Shown here: in pieces, positions 19,313-35,074 of the stretch
How the letters are laid out: the number at the start of each line of letters is the position of its first letter
How positions within the stretch are numbered: the stretch's first letter is position 1
Assembly: GCF_023555375.1 (NCBI RefSeq)
Contig: NZ_JAJSEE010000001.1
Coordinates: forward strand, 248,001 to 312,000
Length of the DNA: 64,000 nt
DNA from: Guyparkeria hydrothermalis
GTDB lineage: Bacteria; Pseudomonadota; Gammaproteobacteria; Halothiobacillales; Halothiobacillaceae
Direction: 5' to 3'
Notes under the pieces: generated by a model
Told to the model about the DNA's origin: nothing
Databases searched by the model: none
The model's input: the letters and a program-made list of their open reading frames with translations, nothing else
Made by a program: the position numbers and the translations under genes

Positions 19313-19383
19313 GTAGGAGCGCCTTCAGGCGCGAAAGGCTCGGGCGGCAATTTGCGTGGTTTCGCGGCTGAAGCCGCTCCTAC
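19313..19383. repeat. Paired REP-like element (REPIN-like) 1
   Basis: Begins GTAGGAGCGCCTTCAGGCGC and ends GCGGCTGAAGCCGCTCCTAC, so two short hairpin REP units face each other over about 30 bp. The two units have different stem subtypes (GCGCC..GGCGC and GCGGC..GCCGC). It lies between glnS and the HiPIP gene. Confidence 0.8.
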
Positions 19384-22224: not shown

Positions 22225-22293
22225 GTAGGAGCGGCCTTAGCCGCGATAACCCAAGGTAAACGCTCAGCCGTTCGCGGCTAAAGCCGCTCCTAC
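22225..22293. repeat. Paired REP-like element 2
   Basis: Begins GTAGGAGCGGCCTTAGCCGC and ends GCGGCTAAAGCCGCTCCTAC. Unlike the other four, both units are of the GCGGC subtype. It lies between purN and the converging membrane-protein gene. Confidence 0.8.
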
Positions 22294-24476: not shown

Positions 24477-24556
24477 GTAGGAGCGCCTTCAGGCGCGATA
24501 GGCTGAACTTGCAACCACGGTTGTCGCGAAGCAATTGCGGCTAAAGCCGCTCCTAC
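24477..24556. repeat. Paired REP-like element 3
   Basis: Begins GTAGGAGCGCCTTCAGGCGC and ends GCGGCTAAAGCCGCTCCTAC, with the two subtypes in opposite orientation. At 80 bp it is the longest of the five. It lies between the FadL-like and acyl-CoA synthetase genes. Confidence 0.8.
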
Positions 24557-26402: not shown

Positions 26403-26618
26403 CATTTCCTCCGGCTAACATCCTGAACTTGCCGGAGTGTAACAGTGCGGTTACGGGAGGTAACGGCAGAGAGTTTTATGCCCCATCAAGGGCGAAAGCC
26501 TGTTGCAAGGCCATTTATCACCTAGGCCAAGGACTCGGGGACATGGTGCTGGTCTGCCGTGGGAGGTGGTTTCGCACGCCGGTTGCTTGGTGCGGCACGA
26601 ATCAAGCTCCGTGCCCAT

Positions 26619-26858
26619 TTAACCTCGCAACAGTCCCTTGACGCTGATGTCCTCGTCCAGCGCGGGCCAATGAATACCTTCGCCGTCCCCCAGGAGCTCG
26701 AATGTCTCGAGCTGCTTGCGATCGGCAGCCGCCAGCAACGGAAACCAGGCCAACGGCACGCTGATCTTGCGACCATCAACAAGCTGGACCGTCATGTCGT
26801 CGTCACCAAAAAAAACCCGCTCGGCACGGGCCTGCGCCTCAACCGCCAATGTGCTCAT
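26619..26858 (-). CDS. DUF2442 protein, second gene of a DUF4160/DUF2442 pair
   Basis: A 79-residue protein from MSTLAVEAQARAERVFFGDD. It contains MTVQLVDGRKISVPLAWFP and the family-typical GEGIHWPALDEDISVKGLL. DUF2442 proteins (NE0471 N-terminal-like fold) usually follow a DUF4160 gene, and the pair has been proposed to be a toxin-antitoxin-like module; direct evidence is limited as far as I know. The start overlaps the end of the DUF4160 gene by 20 bp, so the two are co-translated. An in-frame ATG at 26897 would give an atypical extension. Confidence 0.85.
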   Translation of the reverse strand: MSTLAVEAQARAERVFFGDDDMTVQLVDGRKISVPLAWFPLLAAADRKQLETFELLGDGEGIHWPALDEDISVKGLLRG

Positions 26859-27075
26859 TCCAGGCCTCCAGGAAGGTGTCCTGATTCTTCCGAACAATGT
26901 CCATTATGGTCCGGAGTTCATGGGACGGAAAGTGACTCGAACTCGCGAGCGCAACTGGCTTAAGCCAGCATTTCGCCAAGAGGCGATCCCGCTGCACGTG
27001 AATATGCGGCGGCTCACCGTGCTCGTTGCTATAGAAGAAGAATCGATAAGGTCCGGACCGAAGTACCGTTGGCAT
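26839..27075 (-). CDS. DUF4160 protein, first gene of a DUF4160/DUF2442 pair
   Basis: A 78-residue protein starting MPTVLRSGPYRFFFYSNEHG, followed by EPPHIHVQRD, the hallmark of DUF4160 (FFYSNEHxEPPHIHV). The C-terminal half HELRTIMDIVRKNQDTFLEAWNEHIGG is helical. DUF4160 is nearly always paired with DUF2442 and found in genomic islands. A start at 27123 (94 residues) is possible but adds residues not typical for the family. It lies directly beside the giant repeat element and the OLD nuclease gene. Confidence 0.87.
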   Translation of the reverse strand: MPTVLRSGPYRFFFYSNEHGEPPHIHVQRDRLLAKCWLKPVALASSSHFPSHELRTIMDIVRKNQDTFLEAWNEHIGG

Positions 27076-27972
27076 ACGCGTCCCTGCGTTAGCTACTTGG
27101 GCGATCACAAGATCATTGCACAATTCTGACGTTCATCAATATGGCGTGGAGGACCGTTTCGCACGCCGTTTGCGAGGGATGGCACAAACCGTCCGCCTTG
27201 CGCGGCGTGCGAGGGTATTTTCTTGCTTGTCCAAGAAAATACCCGAAAAGAAGGACTCCCCGCGGCTTGGCCCTTCGGGCCTTCTAGGCCGGACATCGTC
27301 CGACCTAGAAGCCTCACGACCGACGGCTGTCTCGGGGCCGGCTCGACGCGACGTCGTGTCGCGGCGAGCCTCGGAGCGACGTCCCTGTCGCTCCGACCCC
27401 GGCCAGCCGCCGGCCGTGAGGCAAGCCGAAAGGGGGAAGTCTCCGTTACCCGCCGTGCCGCACGCTGGCAACGACGTGTCCGCCTACACATTAAGGCAAG
27501 CATGCTGCTCAAACACCAACAACAATTCGAATCGAAGACCCAGTCCCCCTTACGCCTTGCCTCGCGAGCGGGGAATCGCAGGGTCGGGCCGCCAGGGACG
27601 GCGGTCCGAGGTTCGCCGCGACAGGACGTCGCGTCGAACCGACCCGTCCGCGATTCCCCGTTCGCGAGGCTGATCGCGCCAGCGATCAGGCCCGCAGGGC
27701 CAAGGCGTCGGGGTGTCCTTCTTTTCGCCCCTTTTCTTGGACAAGCAAGAAAAGGGGCTCGCGCGCCGGGCACAGCGCCAGATTGATACTGCGTCGGGCT
27801 AACGGCGCGTGAAAACGGTCCACCAAACGATAGGGGGAACCGCTCCTCCCTTAGGCAACCAGTTTTGTCGCCGAAAATGACATTCCAAGGCACACAAAGC
27901 CGTGGCTCACCGCCTATATCGTGCTGAATATCAGCTAGTTACTTGGGCCCGACCCCATATTAGGTCAAATAT
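27076..27972. other. Gene-free stretch holding the giant inverted repeat element
   Basis: About 900 bp without a credible gene. Most of it (27145-27826) is the self-complementary element described next. Open frames inside are Arg/Ser/Pro-rich on both strands and mirror each other because the DNA is an inverted repeat; they are not real genes. The last 145 bp before the OLD gene stop (27827-27972) are AT-richer and show nothing recognisable. Confidence 0.75.
27145..27826. repeat. Giant imperfect palindrome built of two inverted, self-folding arms
   Basis: The left arm (about 27145-27440) and right arm (about 27540-27826) are imperfect reverse complements around a unique core of about 100 bp. 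The outer ends contain GGACCGTTT on the left and AAACGGTCC on the right. Each arm also folds on itself: left hairpins lie at 27213-27244, 27269-27281, 27281-27311 and 27372-27395, with right counterparts at 27728-27757, 27689-27701, 27670-27689 and 27585-27608. Stem bases differ between the arms while pairing is kept. A 20-bp stem with one G-T pair (27560-27579 with 27650-27669) closes the right arm, and CCTCACG/CGTGAGG closes the left. It is non-coding and looks like a head-to-head pair of a structured mobile or RNA-forming repeat. Confidence 0.85.
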
Positions 27973-29763
27973 TTACCCACGCAGACGACTGTCTATTTCG
28001 GCCAACCAATGAGCAACCTCGCCCGCCGGGTCTCTCTCCTCCAAGCGTGCCCGATTCATTCTATACACAGCTTCTCGGTTCAATTTTCGCTTAGCAGTCC
28101 TTTCCTTTATCGAAAGAGCTGTCGCCACATCTTGAGGGACGTTATTATTGTCAGTTATTGAAACGTGAACGGACAACGATTCGTTAATTGCGTCCGGATG
28201 GAAATAGTTCTCGCACTCACGCTTCCTCGTAAGGAATGCAACGGACCCATCACCCCTAGCATTAACTTCATCGCACGCGGATTGATATTTAGGAGGCTCA
28301 CTCTCGTCTCTATCGTAAATATGAACTTCCGGCTTTCCTAAACTTTTTAGGTAATTATTGTTTACCCAATTTCTGAGTGTGTCGCCGCCGAGAGGAAGAA
28401 GAACTATTCGCGGGTCATTAGCCAAATCAGGAACATTTACACCCTCATCTCTAAGGACCTTAGAGATGCCCTTCAGGAAGCTGACGTCATGGGGTCCTTC
28501 AACGCAGACTATCACTCTGGCTCGAGAGTCCGGCAAAACGCCAAGATCGCGGGCTATAACCTCGCACATCTCACTAGATTCAGAGTCAACCTCAACATGC
28601 CCTCCACTGTTCTTTCGAACATGACGCAATGACTGCACCGGCAATTGTTCTGCCAACCCAGGGACATGCGTCGTCAACAGAATTTGGCATCCATCCGACT
28701 CAGACATATCAACCAACGACTCAATCAAGAGACGTTGTTTATCAGGGTGCTGTGAGGTCTCAGGCTCCTCTATTGCATAGATAACCCCGTTACCTTCACT
28801 TTCTTCTCGGATCTTCTCTGCCTCAGCCTTGAAGAAACTAATCAAGACCAGCCTACGCACCCCACTTCCTCTCTTGTTTATTGGAATGTCATCATCCCCA
28901 GTGAGCGACAGTTTGAATACACTTTCCCATTTGGGGTCCGCTCTAAAAACAGGTGACAAATCCATTGCGAGATCAGGATCAAAGCCAGCCAAGTGTTTTA
29001 ATGTTTTGTTAGCAACATCAAGTGCTCGATCACGCACCTGGACCTTAATTGCATCAAGCTCGTCGTCGAGCTCCTGAAGAGCGTGCGAGACGGCCACCTT
29101 CATCGGATCTTGGACCTCGGCCTCTTCATCAGTACTTGGCCGATCCGCTCTAAAAAGAGCAAAATGTGGCAATTTTGATAGGACTTGATCAAGAATTTCC
29201 TTTCCATCCTCTTTGGAAAGGGAGACTCTCTGTGGAGTCAACTCAAGATCTTCCAAGTGGCCATAAATAGCCTGACGGAGGCTTACGTTTGACCGATTGT
29301 CATCGGCCGCGACACCTAGATGCTGCGCGGTGGACTTGAGGTCTGAATTTTTCTTTAAAAGGGTTCCTTTAGCATGTTGGCTGGAAGGATGGATGCAATT
29401 TACGAAATAAGCGCCCGCTCCCTTTCCCTTTTTGAACACACGAGAAAGTGACAACATCCCATCACTATCAAGGAGGTACTCGTCACGCAAGGTAGTCTCA
29501 GACGAAGAATCAATCACCAAACGTTCAGGGAGGTCTGAGAACACACATGTAATCTCGACATCCTCATCGTCCGAGGCAAATACACATTTATCGGTTGGAT
29601 CGTATTTGCAGGACTTATTGTTGAAAAACACACCTAGCGCGTCTAGCACCGTGGTTTTTCCAACATCATTCCTGCCAATCAACGCAGTAAGATCACCGAT
29701 TTTGATTGAAACTTCTTCTTGATAAGCGCGGAAGTTTTTTATTTCCAGCCTTTCTAATTTCAT
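27973..29763 (-). CDS. OLD-family ATP-dependent endonuclease (AAA ATPase plus TOPRIM), stand-alone
   Basis: A 596-residue protein. The N-terminal ABC/SMC-type ATPase begins MKLERLEIKNFRAYQEEVSI with Walker A GRNDVGKTT at residues 30-38. The ABC signature region (INKRGSGVRRLVLISFF), Walker B (GVIYAIEEPETSQHP) and H-loop (ILLTTHVPGLAEQLP) follow near 290-370. The C-terminal TOPRIM nuclease domain shows VIVCVEGPHDVSFLKG and IYDRDESE, supplying the acidic metal ligands. No UvrD-like helicase gene lies beside it, so this is a class 1 OLD type rather than a Gabija GajA. P2 OLD and relatives act in phage exclusion. Base composition is clearly AT-richer than neighbours, indicating transfer. AAGGAGGG lies just upstream of tandem ATGs (29766/29763). 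It lies 63 bp after dnaE, same strand. Confidence 0.88.
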   Translation of the reverse strand: MKLERLEIKNFRAYQEEVSIKIGDLTALIGRNDVGKTTVLDALGVFFNNKSCKYDPTDKCVFASDDEDVEITCVFSDLPERLVIDSSSETTLRDEYLLDSDGMLSLSRVFKKGKGAGAYFVNCIHPSSQHAKGTLLKKNSDLKSTAQHLGVAADDNRSNVSLRQAIYGHLEDLELTPQRVSLSKEDGKEILDQVLSKLPHFALFRADRPSTDEEAEVQDPMKVAVSHALQELDDELDAIKVQVRDRALDVANKTLKHLAGFDPDLAMDLSPVFRADPKWESVFKLSLTGDDDIPINKRGSGVRRLVLISFFKAEAEKIREESEGNGVIYAIEEPETSQHPDKQRLLIESLVDMSESDGCQILLTTHVPGLAEQLPVQSLRHVRKNSGGHVEVDSESSEMCEVIARDLGVLPDSRARVIVCVEGPHDVSFLKGISKVLRDEGVNVPDLANDPRIVLLPLGGDTLRNWVNNNYLKSLGKPEVHIYDRDESEPPKYQSACDEVNARGDGSVAFLTRKRECENYFHPDAINESLSVHVSITDNNNVPQDVATALSIKERTAKRKLNREAVYRMNRARLEERDPAGEVAHWLAEIDSRLRG

Positions 29764-29826
29764 CATCCCTCCTTGGAGTAAAAACGGCCCGCATGTCACA
29801 AGAGCACAAAGTGAGCGTGGCAGTTA

Positions 29827-33483: not shown

Positions 33484-33553
33484 GTAGGAGCGGCTTTAGC
33501 CGCGATACCCGCAGATACCAATCCCAGACCATCGCGCCTGAAGGCGCTCCTAC
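33484..33553. repeat. Paired REP-like element 4
   Basis: Begins GTAGGAGCGGCTTTAGCCGC and ends GCGCCTGAAGGCGCTCCTAC. The subtype order is reversed on the plus strand compared with elements 1, 3 and 5. It lies between dnaE and the DUF455 gene. Confidence 0.8.
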
Positions 33554-35004: not shown

Positions 35005-35074
35005 GTAGGAGCGCCTTCAGGCGCGATGGTCTGGTTCTGGCACCTGAGGGTTTCGCGGCTAACGCCGCTCCTAC
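35005..35074. repeat. Paired REP-like element 5
   Basis: Begins GTAGGAGCGCCTTCAGGCGC and ends GCGGCTAACGCCGCTCCTAC, the last with a changed loop base. It lies between yejE and the ModE-like gene. Confidence 0.8.

Follow-up and report, generated by a model that had tools for sequence, protein, structure and literature searches.

The window, a stretch of 64,000 nucleotides from the Guyparkeria hydrothermalis genome, harbors at positions 27145-27826 two divergent structured units of about 280-310 nt each. An AMP-binding gene adjoins this site and dnaE lies beyond it. Next to the element lies a variable island (26619-29799) made up of DUF2442, DUF4160 and AAA_15 ATPase genes, and a possible leftover tip of another unit, GGTTTCGCACGCC, can be read on the minus strand at 26568-26580. 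The right unit, subtype A, occupies 27545-27826 on the plus strand and consists of an outer stem, two apical hairpins, two small hairpins, a long 3' hairpin and a terminal hairpin. The left unit, subtype B, has the same architecture read on the minus strand (27145-27455). An earlier note had described the arms as imperfect reverse complements around a 100-bp core. The complementarity is borne out by the blocks 27194-27273 with 27698-27777 (78%), 27335-27399 with 27581-27645 (86%) and, at the tips, 27140-27159 with 27813-27832 (80%), but the core is shorter, about 90 nt (approximately 27456-27544), and its sequence is poorly kept between copies. The termini of the pair are TTTTCGCACGCC / GGCGTGCGAAAA-like inverted ends, and the pair thus has the terminal inverted repeats of a MITE. 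Because copies of the arms turn up at other places in this genome and also in relatives, the inverted repeat is not a chance product.

Outward from the core, each arm runs through an outer stem enclosing hairpins 1 and 2, a variable hairpin, a small GGCCC-loop-GGGCC hairpin, a linker with a TTCTTTTC end, a long hairpin around CTTGgaCAAGCAAG and a terminal hairpin that ends in GGCGTGCGAAA or similar. Hairpin 1 of the right arm (27585-27608, plus strand, CGGGCCGCC..GGCGGTCCG) and hairpin 1 of the left arm (27372-27395, minus strand, CGGAGCGAC..GTCGCTCCG) both present the loop AGGGAC, a form of ANGGA, on their unit strand. Hairpin 2 has the loop AGGAC on the right (27610-27640, plus strand) and ACGAC, without GGA, on the left (27340-27370, minus strand). 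The long 3' hairpin is the most widely shared part of the element and lies at 27727-27758 on the plus strand (GCCCCTTTTCTTG/CAAGAAAAGGGGC, containing ..TTTTCTTGgaCAAGCAAGAAAA..) and at 27213-27244 on the minus strand (GGGTATTTTCTTG/CAAGAAAATACCC). The right terminal hairpin (27759-27813 on the plus strand, limits approximate) is followed by AAAA and makes up the outer end of the pair. The stems are specific to each arm but still paired, as the earlier note had seen, and the small hairpins indeed differ in their loops (GGCCC-TTC-GGGCC and GGCCC-GCA-GGGCC). Folding is very stable, with -181 kcal/mol for the right arm (z -9.6 against 200 dinucleotide shuffles), -200 kcal/mol for the left arm (z -12.8 against 100) and a z of -24 for the whole inverted repeat (against 20). 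Divergent promoters in the core were considered and rejected, since it holds no sigma-70-like match and is not conserved between copies.

In a search against all Rfam families both arms score above the gathering cut-off of 43 bits of RF01731 (TwoAYGGAY), a family that belongs to the Csr-Rsm clan. The right arm matches the whole model (27557-27672, plus strand, 59.1 bits), the left arm with its two-hairpin core only (27333-27401, minus strand, 49.9 bits, model positions 43-114 of 168). Hence the unit does have a formal name, which the earlier note had not known. MIR918 and further Rfam matches in the element fall far under their own cut-offs. Like TwoAYGGAY, the arms carry two apical GGA-type hairpins within one outer stem, an architecture that fold and covariation both recover, with loops looser than AYGGAY. 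In contrast to the family, the element is a dispersed repeat with an added 3' chassis of small, long and terminal hairpins, it often occurs as heterotypic inverted pairs, and hairpin 2 is partly degenerate. TwoAYGGAY is listed from human gut, gamma-proteobacteria and Clostridiales (PMC2864571), and a motif study proposed it to be a CsrA-binding or CsrA-sequestering small RNA in Clostridia (PMC4333381). An Alcanivorax sRNA is unrelated to the element (PMC9788540). Among the titles listed from the open-licence literature we found no report of TwoAYGGAY as a dispersed repeat or as a paired element. The giant inverted repeat is thus two head-to-head copies of a folded TwoAYGGAY RNA element that is scattered in the genome, a known RNA family in a paired, modular form that we did not find in print.

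The fold of the arms is under constraint. The covariation alignment comprised 51 distinct core sequences of the genus, 22 from the genome of the window and 29 from nine relatives. Pairing is kept in 96.1% of the pairing cells, compared to 83.4% in shuffles and 33-47% when the structure is slid by 1-3 columns; the 44-pair structure derives from the first sequence of the alignment, a choice that gives it an advantage over the slid versions. Double-sided changes occur in 27 of the 44 base pairs, against 16.9 in shuffles that ignore kinship, and none of 500 shuffles reached this value. The number of double-changed cells (284 versus 88) lies far outside the shuffled range despite the bias from structure choice and kinship. 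The hairpin-1 loop reads ANGGA in 50 of the 51 units, with a free second base, while hairpin 2 has AGGA or GGGA in 31 and ACGA in 20, including the left arm of the window. Arms at the same site in different species keep their folds while their stems change. These data support the earlier view that the arms fold individually and are constrained in their structure, with covariation above the shuffled background (kinship ignored). A decayed protein gene was also considered, and overlapping six-frame ORFs are present, but covariation and copy-to-copy length changes argue against it and no conserved reading frame was seen.

The genome of the window (2.43 Mb, 9 contigs) contains 18 RF01731 matches, all above the cut-off. 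BLAST searches using the element and the individual arms, followed by a hand tally, located 24 units at 15 places, namely six single units, eight divergent pairs and one convergent pair. The element is therefore dispersed and its arms occur single, paired and in different orientations, the states that the earlier note had suggested looking for. Two damaged units (C3:257729 and C3:261251) were left out of the alignment and tree of 22 units, in which we labelled clades A to E. Six of the divergent pairs join a B to an A arm with a gap of about 90-110 nt (for four of them the tree includes both arms; two were assigned by BLAST), and two join a D to a C arm with gaps of about 286 and 547 nt. The pairs at C1:496 and C2:176 cluster by their B arms and again by their A arms, a partial co-divergence of the arms; the B arms of the window and C7 pairs fall into one clade, but the A arm of the window sits at the base of the A clade. 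Since the divergent pairs are heterotypic and their arms partly co-diverge, judged from these sequences it was probably the pair rather than the single arm that spread in this genus. Gene cargo between the D-C pairs was considered and rejected; the 95-aa ORF at C6:182497-182784 has no Pfam match.

RF01731 matches occur in 10 of 11 Guyparkeria genomes and, with stricter filters, in 24 of 369 genomes sampled evenly from the class. Within the family, where no more than 52 candidates were scored in any genome, the counts range from 0 to 46 and swing strongly: 46 matches in G011, 43 in G012 and none in seven of the eight genomes of genus g4 that were examined. In G012, which belongs to genus g3, at least eight pairs among the matches listed run plus-then-minus with starts 369-409 nt apart, and one of them, on L081, was confirmed. 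The pair layout thus depends on the lineage, and the module that is conserved is the single unit.

At the site of the window the pair or its remains are found in G000 (the genome of the window), G001, G002, G004, G005, G009 and G010; the G010 contig stops inside the right arm and dnaE is not visible there, and the G007 site is split over contigs and was not judged. Internal deletions affect the right arm in G002 and the left arm in G004. In G001 the left arm is interrupted, and a full left-type unit lies between the AMP-binding gene and DUF2442. DUF2442-DUF4160 is present at this site in G000, G001 and, broken, in G010, and AAA_15 in G000 only. A second place, site A (G000 C2:176487-177140), could be compared in 10 of the 11 genus genomes. 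Eight of them carry the pair between the same flanks, in the orientation B-minus/A-plus in six and A-minus/B-plus in two (G002 and G005), while in G004 and G007 the pair is absent and a scar or terminal-hairpin sequence is left. At site A, G006 and G002 have the outer left flank and tip in common but the pair in opposite orientations, a pattern suggestive of inversion through exchange between the ends of the arms. Comparison of sister strains had been proposed as a way to find empty sites; at the two sites compared across the genus genomes (site A and site B) it gave neither a clean empty site nor a target duplication. In an intergenic region that carries a single unit in G000, G002 has a MITE-like insertion with inverted GGAACCTCTGCACGAATAGTAAT-like ends (L287, G002:C6:2000-6000).

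The A(N)GGA sequences exposed in the hairpin loops are the primary CsrA/RsmA motif (PMC4066749), and the genome of the window encodes one CsrA (E 2.2e-25, PF02599 search). Units were gathered by the pattern of the 3' hairpin in a contig collection (a lower bound, among the matches listed) and in the 369 class genomes, 28 of which had a match. TTCTTT just upstream of the 3' hairpin was required, which dropped 6 of 118 units, and hairpin loops were sought in the 250 nt upstream of the 3' hairpin; GGA hairpins played no part in the selection. CsrA status was taken from a PF02599 search in the same genomes, with Salinisphaera (20.3 bits, below the cut-off) counted as lacking CsrA. Four of the 28 class genomes belong to Guyparkeria and were not counted, the genus entering through two named records, and G186 was lost to the TTCTTT filter. 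Match-rich genomes were read in part (for example, 6 regions for the 19 matches of G314, 7 of 10 matches in G210 and 4 of 9 in G246), and named records and numbered genomes may overlap in the genome counts. From the contig collection, 18 of 80 loci (Clostridia, alpha-proteobacteria, Latescibacterota) were left out of the comparison and counted separately.

Among the matches listed, GGA ranks first of the 64 loop trinucleotides in genomes with CsrA (1.21 per unit, genome-weighted; 93 units, 39 genomes) and 29th in those without (0.07 per unit; 19 units, 10 genomes). Any GGA loop is found in 28 of the 39 genomes with CsrA and in one of the 10 without (Fisher p 0.0006, kinship uncorrected). The exception, G210, is 86% complete and carries GGA units. 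Loops with GGA outnumber those with TCC by 128 to 11 in the units of CsrA genomes (3 to 1 in the others), which indicates the RNA strand. All 24 class genomes with RF01731 fall among the 313 of 369 that have CsrA, a distribution with a chance of about 0.02. Thus, GGA loops co-occur with CsrA genes, kinship uncorrected. Kinship confounds this association, since six of the 10 genomes without CsrA are named as beta-proteobacteria or their genera. Again among the matches listed, 11 of the 39 genomes with CsrA have no GGA loop at all. The same holds for 20 units found in Clostridia and in single records of an alpha-proteobacterium and of Latescibacterota, nine of these 20 being from a Ruminococcus that has CsrA. 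Presence of CsrA alone therefore does not bring GGA loops.

REP palindromes are marked by GTAG. No REP-like GTAG palindrome was found in the 22 units, and bare GTAG or CTAC is scattered in six of them. In REPINs, as described in PMC3116915, inverted doublets are the replicative unit, lie between genes, show compensatory changes and leave singles as probable remnants. The element shares the inverted doublet layout, the intergenic position, the compensatory changes and the singles, and REPINs are its closest layout analogue. It differs in its unit of about 285 nt compared to the short REP, in its heterotypic arms and in having no link to RAYTs. Y1_Tnp matches came from 11 of the 20 genomes searched, and there were none in the unit-bearing G004, G005, G011, G014, G016 and G018, of which G011 has the most units. 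A unit fragment lies near one of 30 Y1 loci read (L357; 31 matches). A REPIN/RAYT drive was thus rejected, as the units have no GTAG palindrome and do not follow RAYTs, and the element is not a REPIN; its description as a larger cousin of REPINs is an analogy only. Separate from the element, the window contains five REPIN-like GTAGGAGCG..CGCTCCTAC inverted doublets of 69-80 bp (19313-19383, 22225-22293, 24477-24556, 33484-33553 and 35005-35074). Y1-transposase (RAYT-like) genes flanked by several GTAGGAGCGCCTTCAGGCGC GTAG-type REPs occur at L363 (G000:C4:113009-113233) and L368 (G009:C1:1682281-1682505), and these two genes probably drive the REPINs.

We consider it somewhat more probable than the alternatives taken together that this is a dispersed element whose arms are putative CsrA/RsmA-binding RNAs and which spread as a heterotypic inverted pair. 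RNA from the unit strand would fold into the arm and present A(N)GGA in the apical hairpin loops, and a transcript carrying the arm may bind the global regulator CsrA/RsmA. In Guyparkeria one arm would have been joined head-to-head with a second, different subtype, and the resulting heterotypic inverted pair of about 650 bp probably was the unit that spread to several intergenic places, possibly mobilised by an enzyme acting in trans. After spreading, a pair may be inherited at its site, flip, lose parts or gain neighbouring genes. Transcription of the arms might occur by read-through or from local promoters. Given the many arms, each offering one or two sites at most, the copies could act as a scattered CsrA sink by titration, or could place neighbouring or host transcripts under CsrA. 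The A(N)GGA motifs are shared with CsrA-sequestering small RNAs of the CsrB/RsmZ type (PMC4066749), but those are single multi-site genes, whereas the element occurs in scattered copies with up to two sites each. The function of TwoAYGGAY so far is a motif-based proposal of CsrA binding, and the repeat together with the co-occurrence of GGA loops and CsrA makes this link directly testable. It suggests that a repeat can distribute the binding sites of a global regulator over a genome.

The units might instead be purely selfish DNA, MITE-like or transposed as a single strand, whose transposase recognises the hairpins and their GGA loops as folded DNA, with no role for RNA. We give this a minor share of the probability. 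Dispersal, the TTTTCGCACGCC..GGCGTGCGAAAA inverted ends, the copy-number swings between genomes and a chassis found also with other central modules would all fit, and the element resembles a MITE in being small, apparently non-coding, multicopy and bounded by inverted ends. It differs from a MITE in that the folds of its arms are under constraint. No target duplication was found at the two sites compared, and no parent transposase in a search for Y1_Tnp, which gave no match in six unit-bearing genomes. The strand bias of the GGA loops and their company with CsrA genes, and the folds kept at shared sites across species while stems change, also speak against an element that acts as DNA only.

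A bidirectional transcription terminator, or a stabiliser of mRNA ends made of stacked stable hairpins between genes, is improbable to us. The units are intergenic according to a rough ORF caller, three of the 15 places end 16-30 bp from a stop codon and the folds are very stable, but a two-hairpin multiloop with conserved ANGGA loops exceeds what a terminator needs, the flanking genes have mixed orientations, and three terminator-like sites were counted in 27000-28000 compared to 1.2 (sd 1.1) in shuffles. Still less probable is a hot spot for recombination or cassette insertion, with the units as attachment sites of mobile gene cassettes. It could account for the pair staying between the AMP-binding gene and dnaE while flanking genes vary between species, and for the DUF2442-DUF4160 genes, which lie between two same-direction units in G001 and adjoin the possible unit tip in the window. 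However, neither DUF2442-DUF4160 nor AAA_15 accompanies the pair or its remains in G002, G004 and G005, and ordinary recombination between repeats suffices.

Beyond the putative CsrA/RsmA-binding arms, a 3' chassis is shared more widely. A lead resembling GG..TG..TTCTTT into the 3' hairpin is present in 107 of 112 units among the matches listed, its TTCTTT part being a selection criterion. Units without GGA loops keep this chassis, and some of them have another central motif. A TGTYYGAG..GAGTT centre is found, among the matches listed, in 21 units of 13 genomes, six without and seven with CsrA. Since the same chassis carries GGA hairpins or this motif, there are at least two alternative centres. 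Searching Rfam with 15 loci at the cut-off and six loci at E 0.01, nine of them from such genomes, returned RF01731 only and no family for the TGTYYGAG..GAGTT centre. By their sequence these units look like an RNA class without a family, and the presence of an alternative motif on a shared chassis points towards a second class of RNA that has no match in Rfam. Examples in which the motif replaces the GGA hairpins come from the genomes at L106, L116, L132, L159, L182, L290, L308 and L315. It is conceivable, if rather doubtful, that a modular class of mobile RNA elements is common to gamma- and beta-proteobacteria, with the 3' hairpin even in Clostridia. The common 3' chassis would then serve spread, and an exchangeable centre would plug into RNA regulators of the host, the CsrA/RsmA module where CsrA is present and the TGTYYGAG..GAGTT module in others, with insertions and flips rewiring local control and adding to a distributed CsrA sink.

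Copies of TTCTTTTGTTACTTTTCTTGTGCAAGCAAGAAAAGTAA, nearly identical to the proteobacterial 3' hairpin, were seen in a Firmicute, Ruminococcus sp. SIG547 (L117-L119, L124, L134, L147, L150, L160, L162, L170), several of them near contig ends. In the STE_204 units at L104 and L105, extra GGA hairpins are inserted in the central domain, near 1318 in L104. This locus also has three same-direction 3' hairpins 747 and 540 bp apart, and a minus-strand TwoAYGGAY match lies between the first two.
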